25,413 nucleotides of DNA from positions 1 to 25,413 of the IMG/VR virus record IMGVR_UViG_3300025174_000104. One strand, given 5' to 3'. A model generated the notes under the pieces. That model was not told the DNA's origin, did not search any database, and saw nothing but the letters and a program-made list of their open reading frames with translations. Both the position numbers and the translations under genes were made by a program. Each line of letters opens with the position of its first letter. Positions within the stretch are counted from its first letter, which is position 1. Shown here one piece after another: positions 5,427 to 24,680 of this stretch. This DNA is from a virus.

Positions 5427-6193
5427 TAATTCCCCCAGCTGCCGCCTCCGGCTTCGGGCTTTTTGCCGCCTTTGCCTTTGCCGATGCTGGCGAAATCCCC
5501 CCAATCGGTTACAAGTGTATGCCAGGTTTCCGCAGATTTAGCAATATTCTGAAGCTGCTGCAATTTTCGCTGTTGTGACATCTCAAATGCAGTCATCGCC
5601 GCTTGAATTTGTCCTTGCGCCATTCCCAATCCGGTCATTTCTTCATTGAGCCTTGCCATGGCGGTATTCATGTCTATATTACCAACGTCTATAATCGCCC
5701 CCAAACGCTGTGTGTCTAATCCGGTTAATGCCTGTAAATCCTCCATTTCCGCAATTGCGGATTGATCCGCCAAGGCTCTTTGCGATTCGACATCGAACCC
5801 GGTAAGAGATTGTTCCCCAAAGCTGGAACCGCCTAAACCTCGTAAACCGATGGAGCGTTGTATTTCTCCCCTGCGCTGCGCCATTTGCGACTGTAAGGGA
5901 TTAAGCCGTGCTTGGCGGAAAGCCGATTGATTTCCTAGAAAACGGTTGCGAATATCCTCCGATCTCGTCAAATAATCGCCCAATCCTTCTCCGGTACGCT
6001 TTAACGCCGTTTCCTGGAGAGATCGAATGGAAGGATCGAGTTTAAGTCTACCATCCTCCAAACTCGAAAATTGAGTATAATAATTTTTCGGTCCAGCGTA
6101 TTCGCCAGCGGCATAATCCGGATCGGTCCCTTCTCTGCCAAAAACATTGGACAATCGCTTAAGACCTCTAAATTCATTTTTCAATTTACTCAT
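5426..6193 (-). CDS. Internal virion protein, Gln/Ala-rich helical
   Basis: This 255-residue protein starts by ATGA overlap with the GNAT-like gene. It contains long helical stretches rich in Gln, Ala and Leu (about residues 95-220, for example MAQRRGEIQRSIGLRG and EMSQQRKLQQLQNIAKS) and a Gly/Lys-rich tail (GKGKGGKKPEAGGGSW). This composition and its place after the tail nozzle match small ejection proteins of podoviruses, which assemble into a channel after leaving the capsid. There is no signal peptide and no enzyme motif. The function is inferred from position and composition. Confidence 0.6.
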   Translation of the reverse strand: MSKLKNEFRGLKRLSNVFGREGTDPDYAAGEYAGPKNYYTQFSSLEDGRLKLDPSIRSLQETALKRTGEGLGDYLTRSEDIRNRFLGNQSAFRQARLNPLQSQMAQRRGEIQRSIGLRGLGGSSFGEQSLTGFDVESQRALADQSAIAEMEDLQALTGLDTQRLGAIIDVGNIDMNTAMARLNEEMTGLGMAQGQIQAAMTAFEMSQQRKLQQLQNIAKSAETWHTLVTDWGDFASIGKGKGGKKPEAGGGSWGN

Positions 6194-6732
6194 GGTTTCT
6201 TTTTCCCTTCGATGCTGAATAAATATTCATTTCCTCGCGGATCGCCACAGATAACACGACCAACGGGGCGGAGAACGCCATATTCGCAACAATGTTCCAA
6301 TAAATTTTTCGATTCTTCCAGGCTGCGAATAAAACATACGCCGACTTGGCGTTGATAGCGTATAAATTGCAGAAAAGCCACGCTGGTCCGAAAAATATTT
6401 CGTTTCGACGCCCATGGAAAAAATTCAGCATGAGGCTCATATCGCCAGCCGTCAGAAAACATCCATATAACGACCACCGGGCCGGTGCGCGACGGGAATT
6501 GTTCATTGTCATCGTCTATGATAAGTATTTCGGTCTCCCGCGCCAGGCTCTTGATTTTTTCACAAAAAATAGATTGTTCTATCTTTTCCGATAATTCGTA
6601 AAACGGCTTATGTTTATGAGCCACCCACAATATCGCCATATCCTCGTTTTTATTCGGGTCAAATAACCGAATATGCGGGCGATTCTTTCCAAAAAGTCTA
6701 TCTCTCTTTTCCTTGTATGTTTCAAGCTTCAA
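6190..6732 (-). CDS. GNAT-like protein, probable internal virion protein
   Basis: The 180-residue protein lies between the nozzle and the internal virion proteins, the same place as GNAT-fold proteins in many podoviruses (T7 gp13-like). The segment GPVVVIWMFSDGWRYEPH, then PWASKRNIFRTSVAFLQF, then a final YGVLRPVGRVIC resembles the strand-helix order of these GNAT-like virion proteins. No clear acetyl-CoA loop (Q/RxxGxG/A) is visible, so catalysis is doubtful. The start is a TTG at 6732, overlapping the nozzle gene by 11 bases. No in-frame ATG lies near it, the next being about codon 32. The family call is moderate and the role inferred. Confidence 0.5.
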   Translation of the reverse strand: MKLETYKEKRDRLFGKNRPHIRLFDPNKNEDMAILWVAHKHKPFYELSEKIEQSIFCEKIKSLARETEILIIDDDNEQFPSRTGPVVVIWMFSDGWRYEPHAEFFPWASKRNIFRTSVAFLQFIRYQRQVGVCFIRSLEESKNLLEHCCEYGVLRPVGRVICGDPRGNEYLFSIEGKKKP

Positions 6733-8260
6733 TTTTCATTACATCGAATAATTGTGAAGATGTTGCTGACAAACTAAGATAAAATCCAACCCCTCGGCCT
6801 ATCGGACTAAAGCCCTTGGTGCTTACTCGTTCCGAATAAAAAAACCCACTATTCCAATAATACGCTCCTCCGAAATACCAGCTACCCCCCCAATACATAG
6901 CGAGGTCCCCGAGAGGCGGGCCTTCCAATGGAACGGTACAGCGATTTATGGCGTAATCGTCTCCCCACTCGAAATCCATCAGTAAATCAATATCGGCGAT
7001 TCGCCGATAATAAATCCTGCCGCGCAATCGCTGTAATTGTGGATTAAAATCGTCAATCGTTTCGATGAATTTTGTCTTGCGATATACACTAATATCGGTG
7101 GTTCCGGCATCTCCATCCCCAACACCTTCTAACTGATAAATATTTCCTTCGGAATCACCAAAATAAACATACCAATCCGTTCCTCCGGGGTTTCTCATAT
7201 AAATCGCGCTATTGATGGCAAAAGACGAGGAATGCCCCGTCTGATAAACCGACCAGGGAGAAAAATTTGCTGTCAATAAATCCTTATAAAGCACAAGAAT
7301 TTTATTGTTACCGATAAAGAAATAAACCTTTTGTCGTTCTTGATCGTATACTGTAATGCAATCGGTAATATTATTGGCGGTATTTCTAATCCATCTCGAT
7401 AAATCGTCGGTCTTAATATCTCCATATGCTTGCACGGCGCGGATTGATTCGATACTTCCGTTCTTTTTCATATAAACAACATCATCCCCGATGCTGGTTA
7501 CTGTTTCGGTGCCAATCGCTTGCGAGCCCGAATAAAAAGGACTCCATGCAAATCCCATCGAATCCGTGCCAGTCAGCTTCCAAAGGCCGCCATTTGTCGT
7601 GGAGATAATGAGCACGCCAAAAAACAAAGCAATACCGTTAATCGGCCTAAGATCAGGTGTAACCATATAAAACGCCTCATTCCCAGTCGAAAATGAGGAA
7701 TCCTGGGCGCGCTTGGCGGTGTCATAGGATTCAGGATTTTCAAATGCCGAAACTACTAGCAAATGCGGCGTATTGGTACCAGCGGTTACATTGAATAACC
7801 AAATTCTGCCAAGATGAACAATGCCATATTTAGCATATAGCGAGCTTCCCAATCCTGTCGTTAAGGTTGAAAATGTCGTTCCGTCCCATTTTTTTATGAC
7901 AGTCGCTTTCGCCAGATCGGTAATTACGGCATACCCACCGAGATTCCATGTCGTGCCTCGTAACCTGCTGTTTAAGTTAACCGTTCCGCGTGAAGTAAAG
8001 CCAGTTGTTCCATCCCATTGATAAATTGTATCTCCGGCTTGTATCAGCGTAGTTTCAGTATCGTCCGACTTGATTAGTTGGATAAACCCATTGATCGAAA
8101 GCGCATTTGTCGCGGTTCCCAGTTTATCGAAGGGCTTTCTGGGACGAAAATGAGTATCTGGTGATCCGAGTTCAAAATTATATCCTTCAATACACTCCTG
8201 ATCCAAAACCAAGGTCATATCCTGTTCGTTCAACCCACCCTCGAATGTAAGAACAGCCAT
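6722..8260 (-). CDS. Tail nozzle / stabilisation protein with beta-propeller fold
   Basis: This 512-residue protein is rich in beta strands, with repeated aromatic and Gly motifs such as TTLIQAGDTIYQWDG, VIKKWDGTTFSTL and LWKLTGTDSMGFAW, as expected for a beta-propeller. Length, composition and position directly after the adaptor gene match the tail nozzle or stabilisation proteins of podoviruses (P22 gp10 and T7 gp12 type). These form the lower tail ring and hold fibres. The N-terminus (MAVLTFEGGLNEQD) resembles those proteins. The gene starts by a TGATG overlap with the adaptor stop. A cell-wall enzyme was not detected. Confidence 0.75.
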   Translation of the reverse strand: MAVLTFEGGLNEQDMTLVLDQECIEGYNFELGSPDTHFRPRKPFDKLGTATNALSINGFIQLIKSDDTETTLIQAGDTIYQWDGTTGFTSRGTVNLNSRLRGTTWNLGGYAVITDLAKATVIKKWDGTTFSTLTTGLGSSLYAKYGIVHLGRIWLFNVTAGTNTPHLLVVSAFENPESYDTAKRAQDSSFSTGNEAFYMVTPDLRPINGIALFFGVLIISTTNGGLWKLTGTDSMGFAWSPFYSGSQAIGTETVTSIGDDVVYMKKNGSIESIRAVQAYGDIKTDDLSRWIRNTANNITDCITVYDQERQKVYFFIGNNKILVLYKDLLTANFSPWSVYQTGHSSSFAINSAIYMRNPGGTDWYVYFGDSEGNIYQLEGVGDGDAGTTDISVYRKTKFIETIDDFNPQLQRLRGRIYYRRIADIDLLMDFEWGDDYAINRCTVPLEGPPLGDLAMYWGGSWYFGGAYYWNSGFFYSERVSTKGFSPIGRGVGFYLSLSATSSQLFDVMKIEA

Positions 8261-14225: not shown

Positions 14226-16360
14226 TATTCCCTAGCTCCAGTTGCTTCGGCCAATTTGCCATTGGCATCGCGTGTAACTTTGACCTTAATCGGCCTGCTC
14301 ATGTGATTGACAAGAGAGCTTACTGTCTTATTCATTTCCGATAATTTGTTGTCCACTTCCGATGTCTGTTTCTCGGAAATAGACAGAATCTTATCGAGCG
14401 AACCGACAATGGAGTTTATCTCCGATATGGAGATGGCCGGTCCCTGCTGGCTTCCGGCGGATTTCGCCACTTCCAATTGCGCCTTAAGCACGCTCAATTC
14501 TCCTTCAAGTTGAGTCTTGAATTCGGTGATATTTATTTGTGTTTCCGCGCGCATCTGTGCTTCCATGACTTTTGCTTCATTGACGGCCTTGGTAATAGCC
14601 AATTCTTTTTCCAATTCGCCAATACGCTGTTGCGCCTGCTGAATCATCTGTTCTGCTTCCTGCGCGATCATCATGGCTTCCTGCGGCAACCCCTGATCGA
14701 GATTCAAGAATCTCTCTGGATTCTTAACCCCGGCATCCTGATAAGCCTGTTTAGCCAATTCCACGACATTCGGGAGCTTTTGTGTCATGGGATTGGATAA
14801 CAGGAAAGCCGTGACTTCACCGACTCGTTGCGCCCTGGCTCTCTCCCCCAAGGCTCCGCGCGAACCGACAACATCGAAAACCACATTCACCGGGATGTCT
14901 TCGGCGGTAACTTGCATAAAATCAGGAGCATCCATCTCTGGATTGTAAAACGTATAATTTTGGAGATATTTTTTGTTCAATTCATGTTGCATATAAAGAA
15001 ATGGCCGCAACGCATGACGCTCTTGTTTGTCCACGAATTCCGCCGTTCTGATCTCGGCCTTGACATCCGATGTCGTGATCTCCGTGGCCGTTTTGTCCGT
15101 CCTGTCGTCTCCCGCGCCGGAACGAATGGCATTTATTCCCAATCCTTGATTCAATTGTGCAATTATGAATTCTAAACCGACCATCGCCGCTTGCGGATCA
15201 CCCGCTTGTATTTCCTTGACGCCATAACTTCCCTTGACCCCGATCTTCGCTCCCGGAGCCATGCGTGGCCCGCCGTCCAAGACAAGTTGCGGATCGTTGG
15301 CATCATAAGCTATTGGCGGCTCCACTCTCATTGCCATGGAATCAATCAGCTTATTCGCCATTTGACTTCCCAATTTTTGCATTGGCGAGAGTTTTATCAA
15401 CGGCGAAGTATAATATGGGTCGCGTACATCCACGCGCTCATAACCGGAATAAATAATAGATGGGGAAGCAAGATCATTCGGTGCAAAATAGACAATCACA
15501 TCGTTTGCAAGAATAACCTTGGAATTCGGCAACAAGATATTGCCGTCTCCTCTTTCTATTTCCAGATCACCGTAATACTTGATTAACTCCACATCCTCGG
15601 TTTCAACATCTTTGTTCTGATTTGTTTTCTTTTTGATTCTATTCAAATTCTCCAACATCCAGCCTTCGCCTTGCGCCATGTTCTTTAAAAGATAAAGCGG
15701 AAGATAATCCACCAAGATCATCGAGCCGGTATAAAACAAGTCGGTACCAATTACCGATGGCGAGGGGTCGGGATAAGAATTCCACATGGAATACGGAACC
15801 CAAATGGGCGCGGAGACTTGTTCTACCCCAGTACCACCATGCAATCGAATACGATTCTCCCAGCGAATTTCGGTGACATAAGACCCATGATGCAGCGATT
15901 CCTTAACCGAAAGCTCATAACGTGCCTTTAGGCCGAAATCAAGATGTTGCTGCACCAATAATGCACGATAAGCGCGATCAATAAAATCTTGCGCTTTGGC
16001 GTCTACTTGTTTCGTGCCAGTATCGTCGAGTACCGCCGGAATTTCAGAGTGAACCTCGAACCAGGAGCGTGTCGTGGGGAAAGTAAGCCGCATAACATCA
16101 GCGGCAATAATCTCTGAAGCTTTTGCCAATTCACCAAGTTCAAGTACCGATCTCCATTCCGGATCAATTTTCTTTCCATCTTTGGCAAAACGCTTCATTG
16201 GCTCCATCGCCAATTGACGATCAACTTCTTTCCAAATCAATTCATGCGTTTTGCGAAATTTTTGATTCTGACGGCTTTTTAATTCATCGCGGATTTTCCC
16301 CGCGACTACATCCCAGTCTTTTTGACTGATTTTCCGTTTCTTTATATTTTCTGTGCTCAC
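14225..16360 (-). CDS. Portal protein (head-tail connector)
   Basis: At 711 residues this matches the portal proteins of podoviruses (P22, T7 and N4 types). It forms the ring at one capsid vertex through which DNA enters and leaves. The N-terminus is helical and charged. The central region contains the typical mix of strands and helices (WVPYSMWNSYPDPSPSVIGT, and QLNQGLGINAIRSGAGDDRT before the long crown-type helices). Residues about 545-620 form a long Gln/Glu-rich coiled coil. The gene starts with GTG overlapping the terminase stop (GTGA, 16357-16360). The neighbour order terminase then portal supports the call. Confidence 0.85.
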   Translation of the reverse strand: MSTENIKKRKISQKDWDVVAGKIRDELKSRQNQKFRKTHELIWKEVDRQLAMEPMKRFAKDGKKIDPEWRSVLELGELAKASEIIAADVMRLTFPTTRSWFEVHSEIPAVLDDTGTKQVDAKAQDFIDRAYRALLVQQHLDFGLKARYELSVKESLHHGSYVTEIRWENRIRLHGGTGVEQVSAPIWVPYSMWNSYPDPSPSVIGTDLFYTGSMILVDYLPLYLLKNMAQGEGWMLENLNRIKKKTNQNKDVETEDVELIKYYGDLEIERGDGNILLPNSKVILANDVIVYFAPNDLASPSIIYSGYERVDVRDPYYTSPLIKLSPMQKLGSQMANKLIDSMAMRVEPPIAYDANDPQLVLDGGPRMAPGAKIGVKGSYGVKEIQAGDPQAAMVGLEFIIAQLNQGLGINAIRSGAGDDRTDKTATEITTSDVKAEIRTAEFVDKQERHALRPFLYMQHELNKKYLQNYTFYNPEMDAPDFMQVTAEDIPVNVVFDVVGSRGALGERARAQRVGEVTAFLLSNPMTQKLPNVVELAKQAYQDAGVKNPERFLNLDQGLPQEAMMIAQEAEQMIQQAQQRIGELEKELAITKAVNEAKVMEAQMRAETQINITEFKTQLEGELSVLKAQLEVAKSAGSQQGPAISISEINSIVGSLDKILSISEKQTSEVDNKLSEMNKTVSSLVNHMSRPIKVKVTRDANGKLAEATGARE

Positions 16361-17820
16361 CAGTTGCTTAATCCTGCATAAGATTGTTGAGGTTTTTGCC
16401 TGATCGGTTGGGTTATGGCATGCCTTCGCATCATAATCGCATAACGAGTGGCATCCATCAGATCATCATTAAATTTGGCGATCTCACCATTCTTGCGATG
16501 GTACATGCGCCATTCGTCGAACCAATCCTTGAGATTGGAAAATACTTTGAATCGTCCGGTTTCCATGCGCGAAAGTATTTCCTGAATTCCGATCTCCACT
16601 CCATTCCCGCCTTGTCCTTCCTTCTGGCCGATAGAAGGTGGATTGGAAAATGGCTGAAAATGCATATTGACTCCCATGGACCGATACAGATCTGCCATGG
16701 GTTTCCCCGATTTGGGATCATGTTTCATGCCGTCATGCGGCCAAACAACGGGAACCCATTCACCACGGCTTCTAATCGCCTGAGCATGAATTTCAGTCAA
16801 TGCTCTGGATTGCTTCCAGCAATCGTATAAATAGAGAATATCCGTATCCCGATCCCATGTCAGGCAAACAAGCGTGGCAGCGTGTTCCCATCCAAAATCC
16901 ACGCCGATGATCCTCGGCCAATGACCGGGGATACGGAATGGATCGATGATTATCTTTCCTTCGTCAACTGGATAAACCATGCCGGTACCAATCATGGGCT
17001 TGCCTTGAGACCGCATTTCCCGTTCATGTTCCGGGAATTTCAACAACGATTGTCGTCTCTTATCCGGAGTCATATGCGGCGCGTCGTCCCATGTGGCCGT
17101 AATCAGGGCTTCTCCTGGATTACGGGAATACATGATCTGATGCACCGTGCGCGTGATCCCATCTTCCGGCGTATAGGTAAGATACCCTATGCCGTCGGTG
17201 GAAAGCGTGGCGCGTTTCTGTTGCGATAAAATATCTTCCGGCGGCTCTTCGTCATCCCAGAACCCATGAAGCCTGTACCCCATGAATTTCTTTGCGCCTT
17301 GTTCGTAAGGTTTAAGATAAATCTTCGACCAACCACCGCTGGCGTGCTTCACCAGGCAGATTTCAAACGCATTGGGGACACCGGCTTTGCGCGTGGTCTC
17401 GCCGAGGCATTCTTTCGGTATGGCCCCAGTTCCCAGGGCGGTCGGATCGGCCGGCTCGCCGAATAATTCCTTTTGACAACGATCCCTGGTCGTCTCATTG
17501 GTATTGGAAGAAGCCATCCATTCGACCGGATAATCGAAAACATGGCCTTGCCACCAGTCGGGATACCTCCCCGTAAGATGCATCGCTGTTTCCATCGCGC
17601 CGCAAGTGGATTTCCCAATTTGATTCGCACACTGTAAAGCGCGCATGATCGCAAGATGCGATTTATTCTTGTCTGATTTTACCGGAACGAAATCACCCTC
17701 GCCGAAAACATGATGAAACTTTTTTTGGAATTCATAAGGATTATAAAATTCCAATCGGTGTATTTTTTGATATTGCTCCATCTTGGAAATGAGATGAACT
17801 ACTTCTTCGGCAACATCCAT
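16357..17820 (-). CDS. terL: Terminase large subunit
   Basis: This 487-residue protein is the ATP-driven DNA packaging motor and nuclease. Visible motifs are a Walker A-type loop ANQIGKST at 65-72, a Walker B GFWDDEE at 186-192, and the C-terminal RuvC-like nuclease with IGVDFGWEHA at 305-314 (D308) and NDDLMDATRY at 451-460. Length is normal for the family. The gene starts four bases after the radical SAM stop and overlaps the portal start. It is separated from the probable small subunit gene (22,129-22,524) by about 4.3 kb of sugar-related genes, which is unusual. Confidence 0.93.
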   Translation of the reverse strand: MDVAEEVVHLISKMEQYQKIHRLEFYNPYEFQKKFHHVFGEGDFVPVKSDKNKSHLAIMRALQCANQIGKSTCGAMETAMHLTGRYPDWWQGHVFDYPVEWMASSNTNETTRDRCQKELFGEPADPTALGTGAIPKECLGETTRKAGVPNAFEICLVKHASGGWSKIYLKPYEQGAKKFMGYRLHGFWDDEEPPEDILSQQKRATLSTDGIGYLTYTPEDGITRTVHQIMYSRNPGEALITATWDDAPHMTPDKRRQSLLKFPEHEREMRSQGKPMIGTGMVYPVDEGKIIIDPFRIPGHWPRIIGVDFGWEHAATLVCLTWDRDTDILYLYDCWKQSRALTEIHAQAIRSRGEWVPVVWPHDGMKHDPKSGKPMADLYRSMGVNMHFQPFSNPPSIGQKEGQGGNGVEIGIQEILSRMETGRFKVFSNLKDWFDEWRMYHRKNGEIAKFNDDLMDATRYAIMMRRHAITQPIRQKPQQSYAGLSNW

Positions 17821-17823
17821 AAA

Positions 17824-18783
17824 TCATCCTCGATACGCCACGCAATCTTCACAAATAGTCCCGGTCACGTCTTTTTTCAAATGCACAGCGCGCAAAGTCT
17901 GAAATATCTCGGAGTTCCATCCTTCCATGAAACTCGTTCTGGTCAGGTCGGCCATAGTCCATTTATCCCCAGCATCGAAACAACAGGCCGAGAGCTTGCC
18001 ATCGTAGGTTATATGACCTTCGGTAAAAGCCGACCAACAAGGCAAGGGATCGCGCAAGTTCTCGATCCGGCCCTGATTCCCCGCAATAGGCCGGAATCCC
18101 AACTCTTCCTCTCTCTTGGTGGCAAGGCTGCCCATTGAATACAAGGGCAACCAATAATGCTGATCCACGAACGGTCTAATCTCTTGTACCAGTCTCTCCA
18201 TCGCCTGTTGTTGATCCCCGTCATACATGATGGATGAGGCATAAAGCCCGGTTTTATAACCGAGGTCTTTACGAAGTCGCCACGCTGTTTGTAAATTATT
18301 TTTAATATCGTAAAAAATATCCCCCTTTACCTGCGCGATTTCCGACAATTGTTCAGGCGTGGAGTTATTCAAAGAAAATTTCAAGGAATCCAAGCCAGCT
18401 TCCATCGCCGCCGCAACCCTGTATGGCCAAGCCAGACTGCCATTGGTAGTGCAAAAAACATAGGGGAACCCAACGACTCTTTTCGCATAACGAATGGCGT
18501 CAACCAGAATCTGCGGACGGGAAAACGGCTCGCCGATATAAAAAACCCCGAGCTCTTCGACCCCCGCCGCGCGCATCTCATTGGCTAAACGCATAAATAA
18601 TTCCCAATCCATGTCTCCGCGTTTCTTGATCCGGAGATGATGCGCGCAAAATCCGCAGCGGAAATTACATTGACTGGTAAGCTCAATCTTCACTGACTTG
18701 GGGGCCGGAAGAACCGTTTTCCTGTAATTTTCCGGGATACCGGTAATTGCGTCTATTCTTTTCGTAATTTGATTGCTTGTCAT
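17824..18783 (-). CDS. Radical SAM/SPASM-type enzyme, substrate unknown
   Basis: The 319-residue protein carries the radical SAM iron-sulfur motif CNFRCGFC (C39, C43, C46) at the start of a TIM-barrel-type sequence, with GEPFSRP and TTNGS segments expected for the SAM-binding strands. The C-terminal 75 residues hold five more cysteines (C249, C267, C268, C311, C314), including the SPASM-like pattern of CC and final CEDC, which should bind at least one further cluster. Such enzymes modify peptides, sugars or small molecules. It is last of the sugar-related block and directly before terL. The substrate could be a sugar nucleotide or a protein. The family is firm, the reaction unknown. Confidence 0.85.
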   Translation of the reverse strand: MTSNQITKRIDAITGIPENYRKTVLPAPKSVKIELTSQCNFRCGFCAHHLRIKKRGDMDWELFMRLANEMRAAGVEELGVFYIGEPFSRPQILVDAIRYAKRVVGFPYVFCTTNGSLAWPYRVAAAMEAGLDSLKFSLNNSTPEQLSEIAQVKGDIFYDIKNNLQTAWRLRKDLGYKTGLYASSIMYDGDQQQAMERLVQEIRPFVDQHYWLPLYSMGSLATKREEELGFRPIAGNQGRIENLRDPLPCWSAFTEGHITYDGKLSACCFDAGDKWTMADLTRTSFMEGWNSEIFQTLRAVHLKKDVTGTICEDCVAYRG

Positions 18784-18791
18784 AAAATAAA

Positions 18792-18923
18792 TTACTTCTT
18801 TTTACTTTTACCGGCTTTACGTATAGCAATGGCGACTGCTTGTTTTTGCGGATAACCCTCCTTTTTTAAAATTCTGATGTTTTTGGAAACAGCTTTGTCC
18901 GATTTACCTTTGGCTAAGGGCAT
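18792..18923 (-). CDS. Small basic phage protein, 43 residues
   Basis: A short open frame begins with ATG at 18923, overlaps the end of the ColD-type gene by 20 bases, and stops at TAA 18794-18792, nine bases before the radical SAM gene. The product starts [17 protein letters not shown], contains [16 protein letters not shown] and ends in a Lys run. This GKS...NI...PQKQAVAIA...AGKS arrangement is one I know from many small uncharacterised phage and prophage proteins. It is strongly basic and helical, so it may bind nucleic acid. The function is unknown, but the recognisable pattern makes it a likely real gene. Confidence 0.75.
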
Positions 18924-20001
18924 CAATGGCTCCTATCATGGGTTGATGAAAATTACCGATATAAACGCCTTTCTCATGTATTCTATCGGCGTTTCCCAAC
19001 TCACCGACGATTTCATGATCATAATATTCGATTGATTTGGATTTGGTGAAATTGCCACCGACAATCGGGCGATATTCGACCCCTTTCTCGTCGAATTCCT
19101 TCTTGATTGATTCTATTTCATCGTCCACGATGGCGAAGGCAAACCAGGATGATTCCCCTGTTTCCTTCTGCATCCACCATCGGCGTTTCCGACAAACTTC
19201 TCTCCATCGTTCGGCGTTTTCTCTTCTGCCGGCAATAAAACCATAGAGTTTTTTCAACTGCTCCAACCCGACGGCGGCGGACATTTCCACGGGGCGGACG
19301 TTATATCCGGGAAACAGGAATTCATAAGCCGATGGCTCGATATTGAAAACATTCTTTTCCGGCAAATGCCGCGTCCATCCATGGGAACGAAGACAAAGAA
19401 GCATCTGATAATAATATTCATCATCCGTCGTGACGATTCCCCCTTCCATCGTCTGAATATGATGGGAGAAAAACATTGAGTGTGACGCCATGATCCCGAA
19501 ATTACCGGTTTTCATTCCTTCATATTCGGCTCCCATGGATTCGCAATTATCTTCCAGAGTCGCATGATTCGGAAATCGTTTATAATCGTTCGGATTTCCC
19601 AAAAGATTAACGGCGAGAATCAATTCTTCTCCGGTATAAGCTTCGTGAAGCCGATCCAAATCATAATTCAGTGTATCCGGATCAATATCCACGAATTTCA
19701 GCGCCCAGTCGTATTGCTGGAACGGAGAATAAGATGTCGCCCATGAGACCGCCGGGACAATAACGACACCGGGACCATTCTGGATAGTAAAAGCAGCAAC
19801 CATCAGAAGATTGGCCGAAGAACCGGAATTGACCATGACTGCGTATTTGGTCCCGCACCAATCGGCGTAAGCCTTTTCAAAAGCTCTTACATTCTTTCCC
19901 ATCGTGAAATTCCCGGAATCAAGAACTTTCAGAATTGCGTTTTTCTCCTCCTGTCCCCAGGTATTAAGCGATAACGGGTGAATAATTTCTGATTTGCTCA
20001 A
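18904..20001 (-). CDS. colD: GDP-4-keto-6-deoxy-D-mannose 3-dehydratase, ColD type
   Basis: This PLP/PMP enzyme of the DegT/DnrJ/EryC1 fold removes the 3-hydroxyl of GDP-4-keto-6-deoxymannose, a step towards 3,6-dideoxyhexoses such as colitose. In the 377-residue numbering that counts from 20037, the ColD hallmark is histidine (H192 in [12 protein letters not shown]) where aminotransferases have the PLP-binding lysine. [10 protein letters not shown] (D163 region), [26 protein letters not shown] and YRPIVGGNF also match ColD as I remember it. I prefer the TTG at 20001, giving [12 protein letters not shown] and 365 residues, over a TTG at 20037 inside the preceding gene; the start is uncertain. 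Its substrate is the product of the neighbouring GDP-mannose 4,6-dehydratase. Confidence 0.88.
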
Positions 20002-20911
20002 TTTCAGATTCCACCATCTCTTTGATGATTTGTTCAAAGGAATATTTTGGTTTCCAACCTAATGCTCTGATCTTGGAAGCATCCCCAATCAGGCTATCCA
20101 CATCCGCCGGACGATAACTATTTATATCCTGTTTTACATATTCCGACCAATCCGAAATTCCGATATGCTGGAATGCCTCGGTCAACAAATCCCTGATTGA
20201 TCTCGATTCCCCCATAGCTACGACGTAATCACTGGGGGTCTCCTGTTGCATCATAATCCACATGGATTCGACAAAATCTTCCGCATGCCCCCAATCGCGT
20301 CTGGCATCGAGATTCCCCAATACGATATACCGATCCAGGCCGAATTTAATCCTCGCCACGCCACGACAGATTTTCCGGGTGACAAAATCCAAGCCTCGTA
20401 TCGGAGATTCATGATTGAATAGAATTCCATTACAAGCAAAAAGCCCATAAGCTTCCCGATAATTGACCGTAAGCCAATAAGCGGCAAGTTTCGCCACACC
20501 GTAAGGGCTTCGAGGATGGAAAGATGTCATTTCAGATTGCGGCGGCTTGGACGCCCCGTAAAGCTCCGAGGTGGACGCTTGATAAAATCTTGCGCCGCAC
20601 ATCTTGGCCCCTTCCAGGCAGTTAAGAGTTCCAATCGCGTTGATTTCAAAAGTCGTCCTCGGTATTTTGAAAGACTCCCCAACATGAGACATCGCCGCGA
20701 GATGATAGATTTCCGAAGGATTGATCCTCTGGATAATATCGGTGATTCGTGGATCGGTAACGTCTCCCTCGACGATTCCCACGCCAATCGGAACTTGTTT
20801 AGGTTGCGAAGTTCTTCTGACAAGCCCATGAACTTCATATCCCTTTTCAATCAATAATTTCGAGAGATAACGGCCATCCTGTCCGGTAAGTCCGGTAATA
20901 AAAGCCCTCAT
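19964..20911 (-). CDS. gmd: GDP-mannose 4,6-dehydratase
   Basis: The 315-residue short-chain dehydrogenase family protein converts GDP-mannose to GDP-4-keto-6-deoxymannose using bound NADP. The cofactor loop GLTGQDG is at residues 7-13. STSELYG (113-119, with T114 and E116) and SPYGVAK (Y137, K141) form the active site. NHESPIRG (166-173), GNLDARRDWGHAEDFVE and YRPADVD are typical of Gmd. It is slightly shorter than common bacterial Gmd proteins (about 340-370). The start at 20911 overlaps the methyltransferase stop (ATGA). The open frame continues upstream only as a shadow. Its 3' end overlaps the ColD-type gene, whose substrate it makes. Confidence 0.95.
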   Translation of the reverse strand: MRAFITGLTGQDGRYLSKLLIEKGYEVHGLVRRTSQPKQVPIGVGIVEGDVTDPRITDIIQRINPSEIYHLAAMSHVGESFKIPRTTFEINAIGTLNCLEGAKMCGARFYQASTSELYGASKPPQSEMTSFHPRSPYGVAKLAAYWLTVNYREAYGLFACNGILFNHESPIRGLDFVTRKICRGVARIKFGLDRYIVLGNLDARRDWGHAEDFVESMWIMMQQETPSDYVVAMGESRSIRDLLTEAFQHIGISDWSEYVKQDINSYRPADVDSLIGDASKIRALGWKPKYSFEQIIKEMVESEIEQIRNYSPVIA

Positions 20912-21411
20912 CGCAGTTTCAAATGCACTTCGAGTTCCAGCGATTCCCTGCGTTTTTTGGAATCCGGATGCACGGAATAACCAGTGACAATAAAATATTC
21001 GGCCAGCTTCTCCAGCCACCACGCCGGGGGTTTGACAATAAGATGCGCGTTTCTTCCATCGGGAAGTTTCTTCGCCGCCGGACCACAACCGATGGTGATA
21101 TAGCCGGCGTGTTTCATCTTGGAAGCCATGTGGTTCAAAACATCGTCAAGATATTCCGGTTCTATATGTTCAAGAACGTCGGTACAAACCAAAAGGTCTG
21201 CGGGGTCCGGATCGGCGGAAAAATCGGGGATTCCAGGATCGTATCGCTTCCCGATTCCGAGTTTCCCCTTGCCACAGCCGTAATCGAGAATATCGGAATA
21301 TCCCAAGGATTCGATATACTCTTTTCTCCGTTTCGATCCCATGCCGAAGTTTCTATTCTTCCGATGCATTTTCAGCAATAGACCCCGATAGGAGTCACTG
21401 ATTAACGGCAT
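20908..21411 (-). CDS. Small class I SAM-dependent methyltransferase
   Basis: The 167-residue protein has a SAM-binding motif I, ILDYGCGKGKL (residues 41-51), an acidic strand after YDPGIPDF, and the motif IV-like LLVCTDVLEHIEPEYLDD (73-90), all typical of class I methyltransferases. It is shorter than most, lacking a substrate-recognition extension. Such minimal enzymes occur in phage sugar cassettes, where they might methylate a sugar or a small acceptor. The target is unknown. The gene overlaps the preceding glycosyltransferase gene by 17 bases and the gmd gene by ATGA, so it belongs to the same transcription unit. Confidence 0.8.
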   Translation of the reverse strand: MPLISDSYRGLLLKMHRKNRNFGMGSKRRKEYIESLGYSDILDYGCGKGKLGIGKRYDPGIPDFSADPDPADLLVCTDVLEHIEPEYLDDVLNHMASKMKHAGYITIGCGPAAKKLPDGRNAHLIVKPPAWWLEKLAEYFIVTGYSVHPDSKKRRESLELEVHLKLR

Positions 21412-22132
21412 ACTTCTCGACGACTTCCTTGCGTTTGCCCTTTAAATGCACGATATATTCCCCAAGAACCGATTTACCGAAAACATCCAAATCATCCAGG
21501 GACATTTGCCTGTTTTTGGGAATTTTGAAAAATGGCGACAGGTTATGGCTGGGAATGCCGGAGGTTCGGCGCGCGAAATCGAAAGCCTCGCAATCGTGCC
21601 AGCGGGCATGATCCATAAACCATCCGTGACGGATAAATCCGATATATTGCTTTAGGAATTCCGGGAATTTTTCATTCTCCGTGTCAAATCCGACGAAACC
21701 GGTTTCCGTGTAAACCCCTTCGCGTCCGAGATAGGTCAGCCCTTTGTCGTCGAACAACGAAACCAGAAACTCCTCCGGGATCGGCTTTCGAATAAAACTA
21801 TCGGCATCGAGCCAGAAAACCTTTCCCTTGTATTCCTTCAACACATCCCATTGAGCGAACATCTTGCGGGAAAACTTCCAAAGATCGTAATTGTAATTGT
21901 ATCCATCTTTTGTTCTACCGTGACAGATAGGAACATTTTTGATGTTTTGATAAAATCCCATCACGCCTTCGATGTCGAAAAAATTCCGCTTTTCCAGTTT
22001 CGCGTCATTCAGATCAATATCGGATTCGATATAACAAACGATGCTGAAAGGCCAATTGTTAATAGCGGATTTCAACATCTCCCGTCCATAAGCCTCGTAT
22101 CCCGAATGGGAAAAAGTCGTAACCGCAATCAA
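21395..22132 (-). CDS. Glycosyltransferase with DXD motif (GT-A type)
   Basis: This 245-residue protein has the layout of nucleotide-sugar-dependent GT-A enzymes. The start is beta-alpha-beta (MIAVTTFSHSGYEAYGREML). A hydrophobic strand ends in VFWLDADSF (106-113), where D109-A110-D111 is the metal-binding DXD. A strand-like YLGREGVYTETGFVGFDT follows, resembling the acceptor-side region of these enzymes. No signal peptide or membrane span is seen, so it should act in the cytoplasm. The start is a TTG overlapping the upstream stop as TTGA (22129-22132). Donor and acceptor are unknown; a GDP-sugar from the adjoining genes is possible. Confidence 0.7.
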   Translation of the reverse strand: MIAVTTFSHSGYEAYGREMLKSAINNWPFSIVCYIESDIDLNDAKLEKRNFFDIEGVMGFYQNIKNVPICHGRTKDGYNYNYDLWKFSRKMFAQWDVLKEYKGKVFWLDADSFIRKPIPEEFLVSLFDDKGLTYLGREGVYTETGFVGFDTENEKFPEFLKQYIGFIRHGWFMDHARWHDCEAFDFARRTSGIPSHNLSPFFKIPKNRQMSLDDLDVFGKSVLGEYIVHLKGKRKEVVEKYAVNQ

Positions 22133-22571: not shown

Positions 22572-22750
22572 GGATCGGCGGGATTCAGTTGTTTTTTCAA
22601 TGGAATTACCAGATCGTTCCGGTCGAGATCGTATCCTTTTGAGTTCAGCCAAGTTCTCCATATCGGAAATGGATTGCCGGCGACTTGAGCTTCTAAATTC
22701 AGTCCTCCATATTCCTTACGCAATTTCGCAGTCAAAATAGCATCACCCAT
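22559..22750 (-). CDS. Small hypothetical protein, 63 residues
   Basis: The gene starts with ATG at 22750, overlapping the GT29-like gene by eight bases, and ends 34 bases before the small terminase ATG. The product begins MGDAILTAKLRKEYGG, has NPFPIWRTWLNSKGYDLDRN in the middle and ends in a basic PSLR. The Trp- and aromatic-rich middle suggests a folded small protein. There is no membrane span or signal peptide and I recognise no family. Its tight packing in the operon supports that it is real. Confidence 0.5.
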   Translation of the reverse strand: MGDAILTAKLRKEYGGLNLEAQVAGNPFPIWRTWLNSKGYDLDRNDLVIPLKKQLNPADPSLR

Positions 22751-23351
22751 ATTTTAAATTTCCTTCATTCGTTCGATTTATATTGGTTTCAAATGAAACC
22801 TTATAAAAATCTCTCAACATGGTTAAAAGTTGATTCTCTTTAATCCAGTCATGGTTTATCGCTCCGGTTCCGGTGCGTGGAAGTTCGGCGCGGGTAAATG
22901 GCAGTTCGGGGTTGAATAAAGTATCGAATCCCGCGATCTGTAAAGTCTCGGGCCTGAACCGTTCCAATGCCATGACGATAGAAGCCATACCGGTCGAGAC
23001 ATTCGGATGCTTTGCCCCAAGATTTCTGAATTTTGCGTTCCAGGTGTTGCAGAGATTCAATGGAATCCAAAGATAGGCATTGAGTTCTTTTTTCGCCGCC
23101 TCGACTGCGTTTTCGTCGTACCAGCCCCTTTTGGGGTATCCCCAAAATTCATGAACCTTTATAGTCTTGAAACAACCCAGAACTTCCGTGGAGGCGCAAA
23201 GATAATCTGTTTTTACGCCATAATCCTTGGGATTGGTCCTAATCAGATACTCGGCCCGTTTCAAACGAACGACATTATCGAAACTGTCTATCCATTCACC
23301 CAATCCTTGTCCTTCAAGAGAAGGTCCATGTCCGACGATAATGGTTTTCAA
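22743..23351 (-). CDS. Sialyltransferase-like glycosyltransferase (GT29 type)
   Basis: The 202-residue protein has the order of motifs of GT29 sialyltransferases in shortened form. VGHGPSLEGQGLGEWIDSFDNVVRL (6-30) corresponds to the large sialylmotif, with the YGVKTDY segment after it. STGMASIVMALE (119-130) with IAGFD (139-143) corresponds to the small motif. HDWIKE (H167, E172) fits the HxxxxE very-small motif. Phage and bacterial relatives of this size are known but their donors are uncharacterised. There is no signal peptide. Start: TTG at 23351 overlapping the upstream stop as TTGA, with GGGTGG upstream. It may transfer a sugar other than sialic acid. Confidence 0.72.
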   Translation of the reverse strand: MKTIIVGHGPSLEGQGLGEWIDSFDNVVRLKRAEYLIRTNPKDYGVKTDYLCASTEVLGCFKTIKVHEFWGYPKRGWYDENAVEAAKKELNAYLWIPLNLCNTWNAKFRNLGAKHPNVSTGMASIVMALERFRPETLQIAGFDTLFNPELPFTRAELPRTGTGAINHDWIKENQLLTMLRDFYKVSFETNINRTNEGNLKYG

Positions 23352-23653
23352 TGCAAGCCCACCCGTTCCTCCGGGCCCAATAATCTATTGGTCAGGCTCA
23401 TGGTTTGGCGGATATTTTTGTCTAGATGTTCATCTTGAATCATGTAAAGAACGTCAATGAAAAATTCATTCATATCCAACATGTCTTCTATCAAAAAATG
23501 AATCGTCTGATCCGATGGGTTGGAAAGAACGGCGTCAACTTTCGAGATCGCCGGCTCCATTCTCGGTCTGAGATCGGGCCAATTCACCATCAAGGCCGTT
23601 AACATACCACGCAAAGTCTCGATTTCCCCATAAATTTCATTGACGATACTCAT
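23348..23653 (-). CDS. Small hypothetical helical protein, 101 residues
   Basis: The gene overlaps the GT9-type gene by 17 bases and the GT29-like gene by TTGA, and has GGAGG very close to its ATG. The product is acidic and predicted to be all helical (MSIVNEIYGEIETLRGML, then MLDMNEFFIDVLYMIQDEHLD). No domain was recognised. It lies between two glycosyltransferases, so it might be a partner of one of them, but that is only a guess. Confidence 0.5.
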   Translation of the reverse strand: MSIVNEIYGEIETLRGMLTALMVNWPDLRPRMEPAISKVDAVLSNPSDQTIHFLIEDMLDMNEFFIDVLYMIQDEHLDKNIRQTMSLTNRLLGPEERVGLH

Positions 23654-24680
23654 ATTCCTCCAGAGAGTTGAATACCTTCACCGATCCATAAATCATGTGA
23701 GAAACATCGTTTCCAATACCGTAATACCAAAGCGCCGGGTCTACTTTCCCCGTTCCCTTGGGGGGTTTGATAGCGTCACAGAGCACCCCCAACCCTCCGC
23801 ATTCATGCACAACCGTCTGCGTCACGGAAACAACCCTGTCCAGACAGGAGATGAAGTTTAGATGATTTTCCATATCCAACATGGAGTTTGGTTGGATTTC
23901 AACCAATTTTTCGTGTTTCCCTTCATATTGAACATTAAACAGCGTCCCTCTCGGGGAAATTTTGTCTATTAGTTTGTTTACATCCAGAATTCCATGTCTC
24001 GCTTTCCAAGCCACTCCGATCCATGGTTTTGGGTATTGCCAAAGTCTTTCCAGCCACGCTTTTCTTATATTCTGGTCGGGTTTTAAAAAAGGCTTCCTCG
24101 GAAAATGCGATTTGTTCCTTCGATAAAACATGAATAAATCCGCGAGCGCAACCACGCTTGCCTCTCCCTCGATCTGAGAAAGAACTCTTCTGGGAGTGCA
24201 TTTAATTCCGAACGATCTCCGAAAAACCGGGAAAAGTCTGGGATGACACTGCAATTCCAGGGGGTCATGGCCAAGTCTGACAATTAATTCTGGAATAGCC
24301 GAGGCATATAAAATTTCATCTCCTATTCCTTGCTCTGAGGCAATAATTAGATGTTTAACTTTATTGCCATTCCATTTCGGAACAGTCATACCGCCTTTCG
24401 GCCCACCATTCCATCCCTGGAAAGTAATGGACCAATCACTTCTATATTCCCATCCATCCCAATTATCGAACTTCCCCAAGGAAAGCCTTGTGGAACATAA
24501 ATGCCATCTAAAATTTATCGGAAAAGCCGAATAATTAATCCCTCCTGATCTTTTGATAGTTTTTCTTAGGAATTTTTTCATCCTTTGCCACTTTAAAGCA
24601 GTAAGGTCTTTCCACTGACAATGTTTTAAATCTTCTTCAAAAGATTCATAAACATCAGCCCAATGCGATTTAGTGGTCAT
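23637..24680 (-). CDS. Glycosyltransferase of the GT9 / TPR-linked type
   Basis: The 347-residue protein resembles the catalytic part of TPR-linked and GT9-like transferases. The N-terminal section ends with an aromatic GWEYRSDWS and FQGWNGGP. The key motif SEQGIGDEILYASAIPEL (115-132) corresponds to the EQGLGD-type loop of that family, followed by LQCHPRLFPVFRRSFG. The C-terminal half has WIGVAWKARHG and a late FISCLDRVVSVTQTVVHECG, matching the family's VISVDTAVAHLAG-type segment. This is the first gene of the minus-strand unit. It has no clear Shine-Dalgarno, only an A/T-rich leader. Donor and acceptor are unknown. Confidence 0.72.
   Translation of the reverse strand: MTTKSHWADVYESFEEDLKHCQWKDLTALKWQRMKKFLRKTIKRSGGINYSAFPINFRWHLCSTRLSLGKFDNWDGWEYRSDWSITFQGWNGGPKGGMTVPKWNGNKVKHLIIASEQGIGDEILYASAIPELIVRLGHDPLELQCHPRLFPVFRRSFGIKCTPRRVLSQIEGEASVVALADLFMFYRRNKSHFPRKPFLKPDQNIRKAWLERLWQYPKPWIGVAWKARHGILDVNKLIDKISPRGTLFNVQYEGKHEKLVEIQPNSMLDMENHLNFISCLDRVVSVTQTVVHECGGLGVLCDAIKPPKGTGKVDPALWYYGIGNDVSHMIYGSVKVFNSLEEYEYRQ

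Follow-up and report, generated by a model that had tools for sequence, protein, structure and literature searches.

A twitch-like radical SAM enzyme family found in phage glycan cassettes and, behind FNR-type boxes, in many Betaproteobacteria

Introduction

Radical SAM enzymes permit C-H chemistry beyond that of ordinary sugar enzymes. The two-cluster SPASM motif found in some of them comprises seven cysteines (CX9-15GX4C-gap-CX2CX5CX3C-gap-C; PMC6231123), and BtrN (2-deoxy-scyllo-inosamine dehydrogenase) is a twitch-type radical SAM enzyme whose substrate is a sugar-like aminocyclitol (PMC9012708). Many SPASM/twitch enzymes act on peptides (PMC9012708, PMC6231123). Here, we describe a radical SAM/twitch family of phages and bacteria, no description of which was found in openly licensed papers. 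The starting point was a 25.4-kb linear IMG/VR virus record (the whole stretch of 25,413 nucleotides is called “the window” below) that also carries major head, portal/adaptor, endolysin and SU10-type adaptor genes. An earlier, sequence-only reading had placed a radical SAM/SPASM enzyme next to terL in a phage sugar block of this record and had suggested the product of a neighboring ColD-like enzyme among its possible substrates.

A radical SAM gene with one predicted auxiliary-cluster domain

The open reading frame runs exactly from position 17824 to 18783 on the minus strand (319 aa), with the following features:

17824..18783, minus strand: radical SAM/SPASM (twitch-like) enzyme, 319 aa (supported by PF04055, PF13186, eight conserved Cys and an AF2 model)
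18646..18669, minus strand: CX3CX2C radical SAM cluster motif, residues 39-46 (C39-C46; from the translation, invariant in relatives)
17842..18039, minus strand: SPASM/twitch region, residues 249-314 (C249, C267, C268, C311, C314; Pfam SPASM, invariant Cys)

The CX3CX2C motif and the Pfam Radical_SAM core (PF04055: E = 1.7e-12, residues 33-166, 48.2 bits against a cut-off of 29.5) place the protein in the radical SAM superfamily, and a SPASM match (PF13186: E = 2.2e-10, residues 249-314, 41.1 bits against a cut-off of 21.5) with five conserved C-terminal cysteines places it among SPASM/twitch proteins. In an alignment of 166 relatives, eight of the nine cysteines of the window protein were essentially invariant (C39/C43/C46 of the CX3CX2C motif, plus C249, C267, C268, C311 and C314), the same number as in the sequence-only reading of a radical SAM cluster plus an auxiliary cluster; the ninth, C111, was not conserved. 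The five C-terminal cysteines do not make a full two-cluster SPASM domain, and CX2CX5CX3C was absent from the alignment. Since the seven-cysteine motif would need more cysteines than the C-terminal region offers, one auxiliary cluster would be expected, and the region looks like a short twitch type in which four to five cysteines would fit a single auxiliary cluster. In the AlphaFold (AF2) model (pLDDT 86.8, pTM 0.88), the first barrel strand already began at residue 30, with no domain ahead of the barrel. Between phage pairs with unsaturated synonymous sites, dN/dS was 0.04 to 0.28 (a range that leaves out the window versus L004 and one other pair), indicating purifying selection. The low dN/dS and the occurrence of the family in >100 viral and >100 genomic contigs argue against a chance reading frame. 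These results confirmed the gene product as a genuine radical SAM enzyme whose C-terminal part is a SPASM domain.

A scan of viral sequences returned 64 relatives (46 to 100% identity), a scan with an alignment as query returned 115 matching stretches (80 kept), and more than 100 environmental phage contigs carry the radical SAM gene. Among isolate phages there was no full-length match and only two partial matches at 30% identity. The genome scan returned 129 relatives, mostly from Betaproteobacteria metagenome-assembled genomes (MAGs), of which 80 were kept (53 to 69% identity). No NCBIfam family scored above its cut-off for the window protein, the equivalogs for MoaA, PqqE, NirJ, AhbC/D, viperin and the sactipeptide and mycofactocin maturases included, and 40 further family members matched, by E-value, the same distant NCBIfam families only. 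QueE and NrdG profiles were not among the listed NCBIfam and PHROG matches of the window protein and no equivalog came near its cut-off, in agreement with the earlier view that this enzyme does not resemble phage-encoded members of known pathways such as queuosine synthesis. In fold searches, viperin, MoaA, SuiB, DesII, BtrN, BlsE and EpeE all matched at TM 0.4 to 0.6; model-based matches of this kind inform at the general radical SAM level only and fail to separate sugar, nucleotide and peptide enzymes. A PDB search with the SPASM region alone gave no match. Judged by these sequence comparisons, the radical SAM/twitch proteins form a coherent family that is absent from curated libraries.

Phage neighborhoods

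The other annotated genes around the radical SAM gene of the window are as follows:

16357..17820, minus strand: terminase large subunit (TerL), immediately downstream (Pfam Terminase_6N/6C)
18792..18923, minus strand: small basic protein of 43 aa, phrog_2423, overlapping the end of the ColD-like gene (PHROG family)
18904..20037, minus strand: ColD-like PLP/PMP sugar 3-dehydratase with His replacing the aminotransferase Lys (E = 2.4e-100 to ColD, 2gms; SHH motif aligned)
19964..21088, minus strand: GDP-mannose 4,6-dehydratase-like (GMD) gene (Pfam GDP_Man_Dehyd, 5.7e-113; NCBIfam gmd, 379 bits, cut-off 415); translation probably begins inside the called reading frame
20908..21411, minus strand: class I methyltransferase of the glycan cassette (cluster 3; phrog_24759 methyltransferase, 2.2e-25; cluster in 32 viral loci)
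21395..22132, minus strand: putative glycosyltransferase-like cassette gene (cluster 7; from context only, with no Pfam or PHROG match; cluster in 20 viral loci)
22743..23351, minus strand: sialyltransferase (GT29)-like cassette gene (Pfam Glyco_transf_29, 9e-6)
23637..24680, minus strand: gene related to TPR-containing, putative glycosyltransferase-like proteins, itself a candidate glycosyltransferase (cluster 2; cluster in 34 viral loci; phrog_36377 weak)

Both neighbors named in the sequence-only reading were found as described: the Terminase_6N/6C gene abuts the radical SAM gene, and the ColD-like protein aligned almost end to end with ColD (E about 1e-100), the dehydratase-type His included. 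The small phrog_2423 reading frame separates the radical SAM gene from the ColD-like gene. Together, the GMD and the ColD-like dehydratase (18904-21088) represent two steps towards a 3,6-dideoxyhexose; no ColC-like reductase was recognized within the window.

Genes of the viral loci were called with a codon-model script and then clustered; the contigs were often short, and cassette annotation came partly from fold or weak homology. In 51 of 70 phage loci, two or more genes of glycosyltransferase, methyltransferase or sugar type lay within four genes of the radical SAM gene. The glycan-type share of neighbors fell from 47% for adjacent genes to 32, 28 and 18% for those two, three and four genes away, and to 0 to 3% at nine genes or more, a gradient that shows clustering with an annotation resting on partial homology, because the cassette set was drawn from the neighbors themselves. 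The commonest neighbor family had no Pfam match; its AF2 model (pLDDT 92) matched GT8/GT24-type glycosyltransferases, and DxD-like residues were conserved. In the 80 best-matching other viral loci of this neighbor glycosyltransferase, the radical SAM gene was found in none. The glycosyltransferase is common in viruses lacking the radical SAM gene and would thus be a general phage gene that the radical SAM enzyme has joined, and one that does not need the enzyme. Other phage neighbors were GT9, GT29/MptE-like, FkbM and further methyltransferase, GMD and ColD genes. The cassettes often adjoined virion or packaging genes, and phage copies were not clustered with NrdDG or other anaerobic genes. 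No conserved small-ORF family was apparent next to the radical SAM gene among the relatives. Small ORFs were considered as peptide substrates and set aside, the most widespread families looking like shadow ORFs of neighboring genes. For a cassette glycosyltransferase with a GT8-like fold (phrog_28018), 54 of 74 Burkholderiales genomes also carry chromosomal homologs (L262-L273), nearly always in single copy and often near TPR proteins, pilins and porins.

Only 15 of 84 viral loci had a GMD-like gene and 14 a ColD-like gene, most having neither, and the TerL cluster of the window type occurred in 14 of 84. TerL adjacency and the GMD and ColD-like genes are largely traits of one phage group. Of the sequence-only reading, the sugar block held both here and in most carrier phages; the link to terL did not extend to the family, and the specific tie to the ColD product was not supported, given the scarcity of the GMD and ColD-like genes.

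Bacterial orthologs and FNR-type boxes

The orthologs (53 to 69% identity) are chromosomal in Betaproteobacteria, many from soil and water, and their carriers include Azoarcus sp. L1K30 and the complete genome GR16-43 (L066). In GR16-43 and many MAGs, neighbors were nrdD/nrdG, fnr/crp-type regulators, uspA, cbb3 oxidase, hemN, nar and hemerythrin genes (names of bacterial neighbors were mostly assigned by reading the sequences, and the genomes are mostly MAGs). In most Betaproteobacteria the ortholog lay with genes for respiration, Fnr/Crp, UspA and ribonucleotide reductase rather than with sugar genes. Of 74 genomes in one Burkholderiales family, 41 had the ortholog, compared with 4 of 151 in a Rhodocyclaceae-type family. 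Within the Burkholderiales family, the partner glycosyltransferase did not co-occur with the enzyme (30 of 41 genomes with the enzyme, 24 of 33 without), and co-occurrence was weak both for NrdD (10/41 versus 4/33) and for flagellin (19/41 versus 9/33).

A minority of bacterial copies (L075, L081, L119 and L141) stood in glycan settings. One (L075) lay in a flagellin/FliD region with a TPR protein, a SIS-type isomerase and the same glycosyltransferase and methyltransferase families as the phage cassettes; two (L081, L119) directly preceded a KdsD-like (arabinose-5-phosphate-isomerase-like) SIS gene, and one (L141) was near rhamnose/heptose and secretion genes. Type II secretion/pilus genes were found near the ortholog in L141 and in L101/L134. 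The SIS/CBS arabinose-5-phosphate-isomerase-like gene adjoining the radical SAM gene (L081, 4631-5608; L075, 8976-9959; L119, 5686-6678) hints, for the bacteria concerned, at a sugar that is Kdo-like or derived from arabinose. In some Betaproteobacteria (L274, at 5956-6897, and L085, L089 and L110), a tandem, more divergent radical SAM paralog directly precedes the ortholog.

An exact TTGAT-N4-ATCAA box was present within 250 bp upstream of 26 of 78 bacterial orthologs (L066-L145) and, allowing up to one mismatch, of 39 of 78, counts that are non-independent owing to related genomes. Controls gave 0 of 80 inside the gene, 2 of 78 at 700 bp upstream and 0.6% in shuffles, and 2 of 79 viral upstream regions had a box. 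About two thirds of the boxes were 60 to 92 bp from the start, and boxes stood behind 14 of 43 tandem and 25 of 35 divergent neighbors. With a box in the promoter region, these orthologs are putative members of the FNR regulon, and FNR probably controls the ortholog in many Betaproteobacteria. Such control would say nothing of the substrate, since regulation of this kind could apply to oxygen-labile enzymes whatever their pathway.

Evolution of the family

A single clade for all sampled viral copies was rejected (p-AU = 8e-28), and the larger tree required about ten changes between phage and bacterium, at least four of them forced by well-supported branches. The window grouped with viral L004-L007 and genomic L066-L069 (SH-aLRT 89). 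As viral monophyly was rejected, the gene has moved repeatedly between phages and bacteria. Two MAG-binned contigs (L111, L137) had phage-like gene order; these and some other MAG contigs of the genome set are probably viral.

Likely function

We put at roughly 0.5 the probability that the family is an oxygen-sensitive, single-auxiliary-cluster (twitch-like) radical SAM enzyme whose substrate, which it modifies, is a surface-glycan building block or intermediate. The sugar part of this reading is supported by the placement of the gene in a glycan cassette in most phage loci; the minority of bacterial glycan islands and the neighbors of distant relatives point the same way, and action on a glycan precursor is about an even bet on this evidence. 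The FNR-type boxes bear on the oxygen-responsive part only. From fold and motifs, the CX3CX2C cluster would cleave SAM to a 5'-deoxyadenosyl radical and the C-terminal cysteine domain would carry a second iron-sulfur cluster. The radical may then remove hydrogen from a sugar or sugar-linked carbon, with the auxiliary cluster taking an electron (a BtrN-like dehydrogenation) or aiding epimerization or elimination, and cassette glycosyltransferases and methyltransferases might build the product into a glycan of the virion in phages, or of flagella, pili or the envelope in some bacteria. FNR control, probable in many Betaproteobacteria, would suit an oxygen-labile enzyme, and the phage copies would act apart from the regulatory box, in glycan cassettes often beside virion or packaging genes. 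Against a role in glycans, the bacterial gene is mostly found among respiration and regulator genes, and in one Burkholderiales family the partner glycosyltransferase is as common in genomes without the enzyme as in those with it.

The same bacterial evidence makes an anaerobic housekeeping role a serious rival. HemN and NrdDG replace oxygen-dependent enzymes, and this enzyme might likewise act on a cofactor, tRNA base or metabolite at low oxygen and be carried by phages as an auxiliary metabolic gene that supports hosts in anoxic habitats. The excess of boxes (39/78 with up to one mismatch versus 0.6% in shuffles, many at 60 to 92 bp), the Fnr/Crp, UspA, cbb3 oxidase, HemN, Nar and NrdDG neighbors and the frequency in one Burkholderiales family all fit such a role; we nonetheless consider it rather unlikely, since the patchy distribution elsewhere is unlike that of a housekeeping gene, phage copies accompany glycan genes rather than anaerobic ones, some bacterial copies lie in flagellar-glycan islands, and co-occurrence with NrdD is weak. 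As to tRNA-modification and anaerobic maturase families, orthology to which the sequence-only reading had set against a sugar role, no NCBIfam equivalog reached its cut-off, and the nearest cellular relatives do adjoin anaerobic or microaerobic genes and carry FNR-type boxes, which goes part of the way toward that opposing case. Post-translational modification of a capsid, tail, flagellin or pilin side chain, perhaps creating a glycosyltransferase acceptor, would agree with the virion and packaging genes beside phage cassettes, with the flagellin and type II secretion/pilus genes near a few bacterial copies, and with the peptide substrates common among SPASM/twitch enzymes (PMC9012708, PMC6231123). 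It seems unlikely to us, as for most bacterial copies no neighboring gene encodes such a protein, the model shows no added N-terminal peptide-binding (RRE-like) domain and no conserved small peptide gene is apparent alongside; the usual marks of a RiPP maturase, a leader-peptide-binding domain and an adjacent precursor gene, were thus not seen, though an RRE-free maturase would still be compatible.

Two narrower proposals carry far less weight. In this phage, GMD, the ColD-like gene, the small ORF and the radical SAM gene follow one another in that order on one strand and no ColC-like reductase was recognized in the window, which would be in keeping with an enzyme dedicated to GDP-4-keto-3,6-dideoxymannose (the ColD product) within a 3,6-dideoxysugar pathway of the phage. 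Only a minority of phages have the GMD/ColD pair, however; the ColD product is therefore an unlikely substrate for the family as a whole, and we regard such a dedicated role as very improbable. Viperins, which are not known to carry SPASM cysteines, ranked high in both the fold and the profile searches, yet the window protein reached 31 bits where NCBIfam prokaryotic viperin requires 180, the profile matches covered the radical SAM core alone and TM was only about 0.6; a virus-encoded viperin-like nucleotide enzyme, and with it a defense role, was rejected as hardly credible.

Returning to the glycan-precursor reading, an FNR-induced bacterial enzyme might install a surface-glycan change specific to anaerobiosis, and phages might repeatedly have captured it, minus the oxygen-responsive box, to decorate virions with a radical-modified sugar; we offer this extension only tentatively. 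The family ties phage glycan cassettes to an apparent FNR regulon of Betaproteobacteria. Were the substrate a glycan precursor, surfaces would be decorated in response to oxygen and phages would have a new way of glycosylating their virions; should that reading be false, an unrecognized FNR-linked enzyme would have been identified. Bacterial orthologs (e.g., in Azoarcus sp. L1K30 and GR16-43) make the question experimentally tractable.

Comparison with known systems

BtrN shares with the window protein its small size, the CX3CX2C site and one auxiliary-cluster (twitch) domain, and what we take to be its ligand spacing (C169/C187/C232/C235) resembles that of residues 249/267/311/314. The profile match to BtrN (E = 7.5e-11) is, however, confined to the core, TM was 0.52 over the query, and aminocyclitol genes were not recognized near the window gene. 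Residues 249-315 match NF033640 (twitch domain-containing radical SAM protein), as did all 41 family members at E ≤ 0.001, but in the twitch region only, and the window protein scored 36.8 bits, short of the cut-off of 170. The best NCBIfam core matches were the tungsten-cofactor oxidoreductase maturase TIGR04317 and MoaA (59 and 47 bits), far below their cut-offs of 380 and 284, and oxidoreductase or molybdopterin genes were not recognized near the window gene. Viperin/pVip ranks high by fold and core profile and differs in the SPASM cysteines, which it is not known to have, and in the family cut-off that the window protein falls far short of. Plasmid radical SAM/SPASM proteins of Azospirillum, Brachyspira and Lawsonia are only 23 to 27% identical, but share the domain order over most of their length and similar neighbors (DegT, GT41 or other glycosyltransferase, GMD and methyltransferase genes), and these distant full-length relatives lie mostly in glycan-type clusters.
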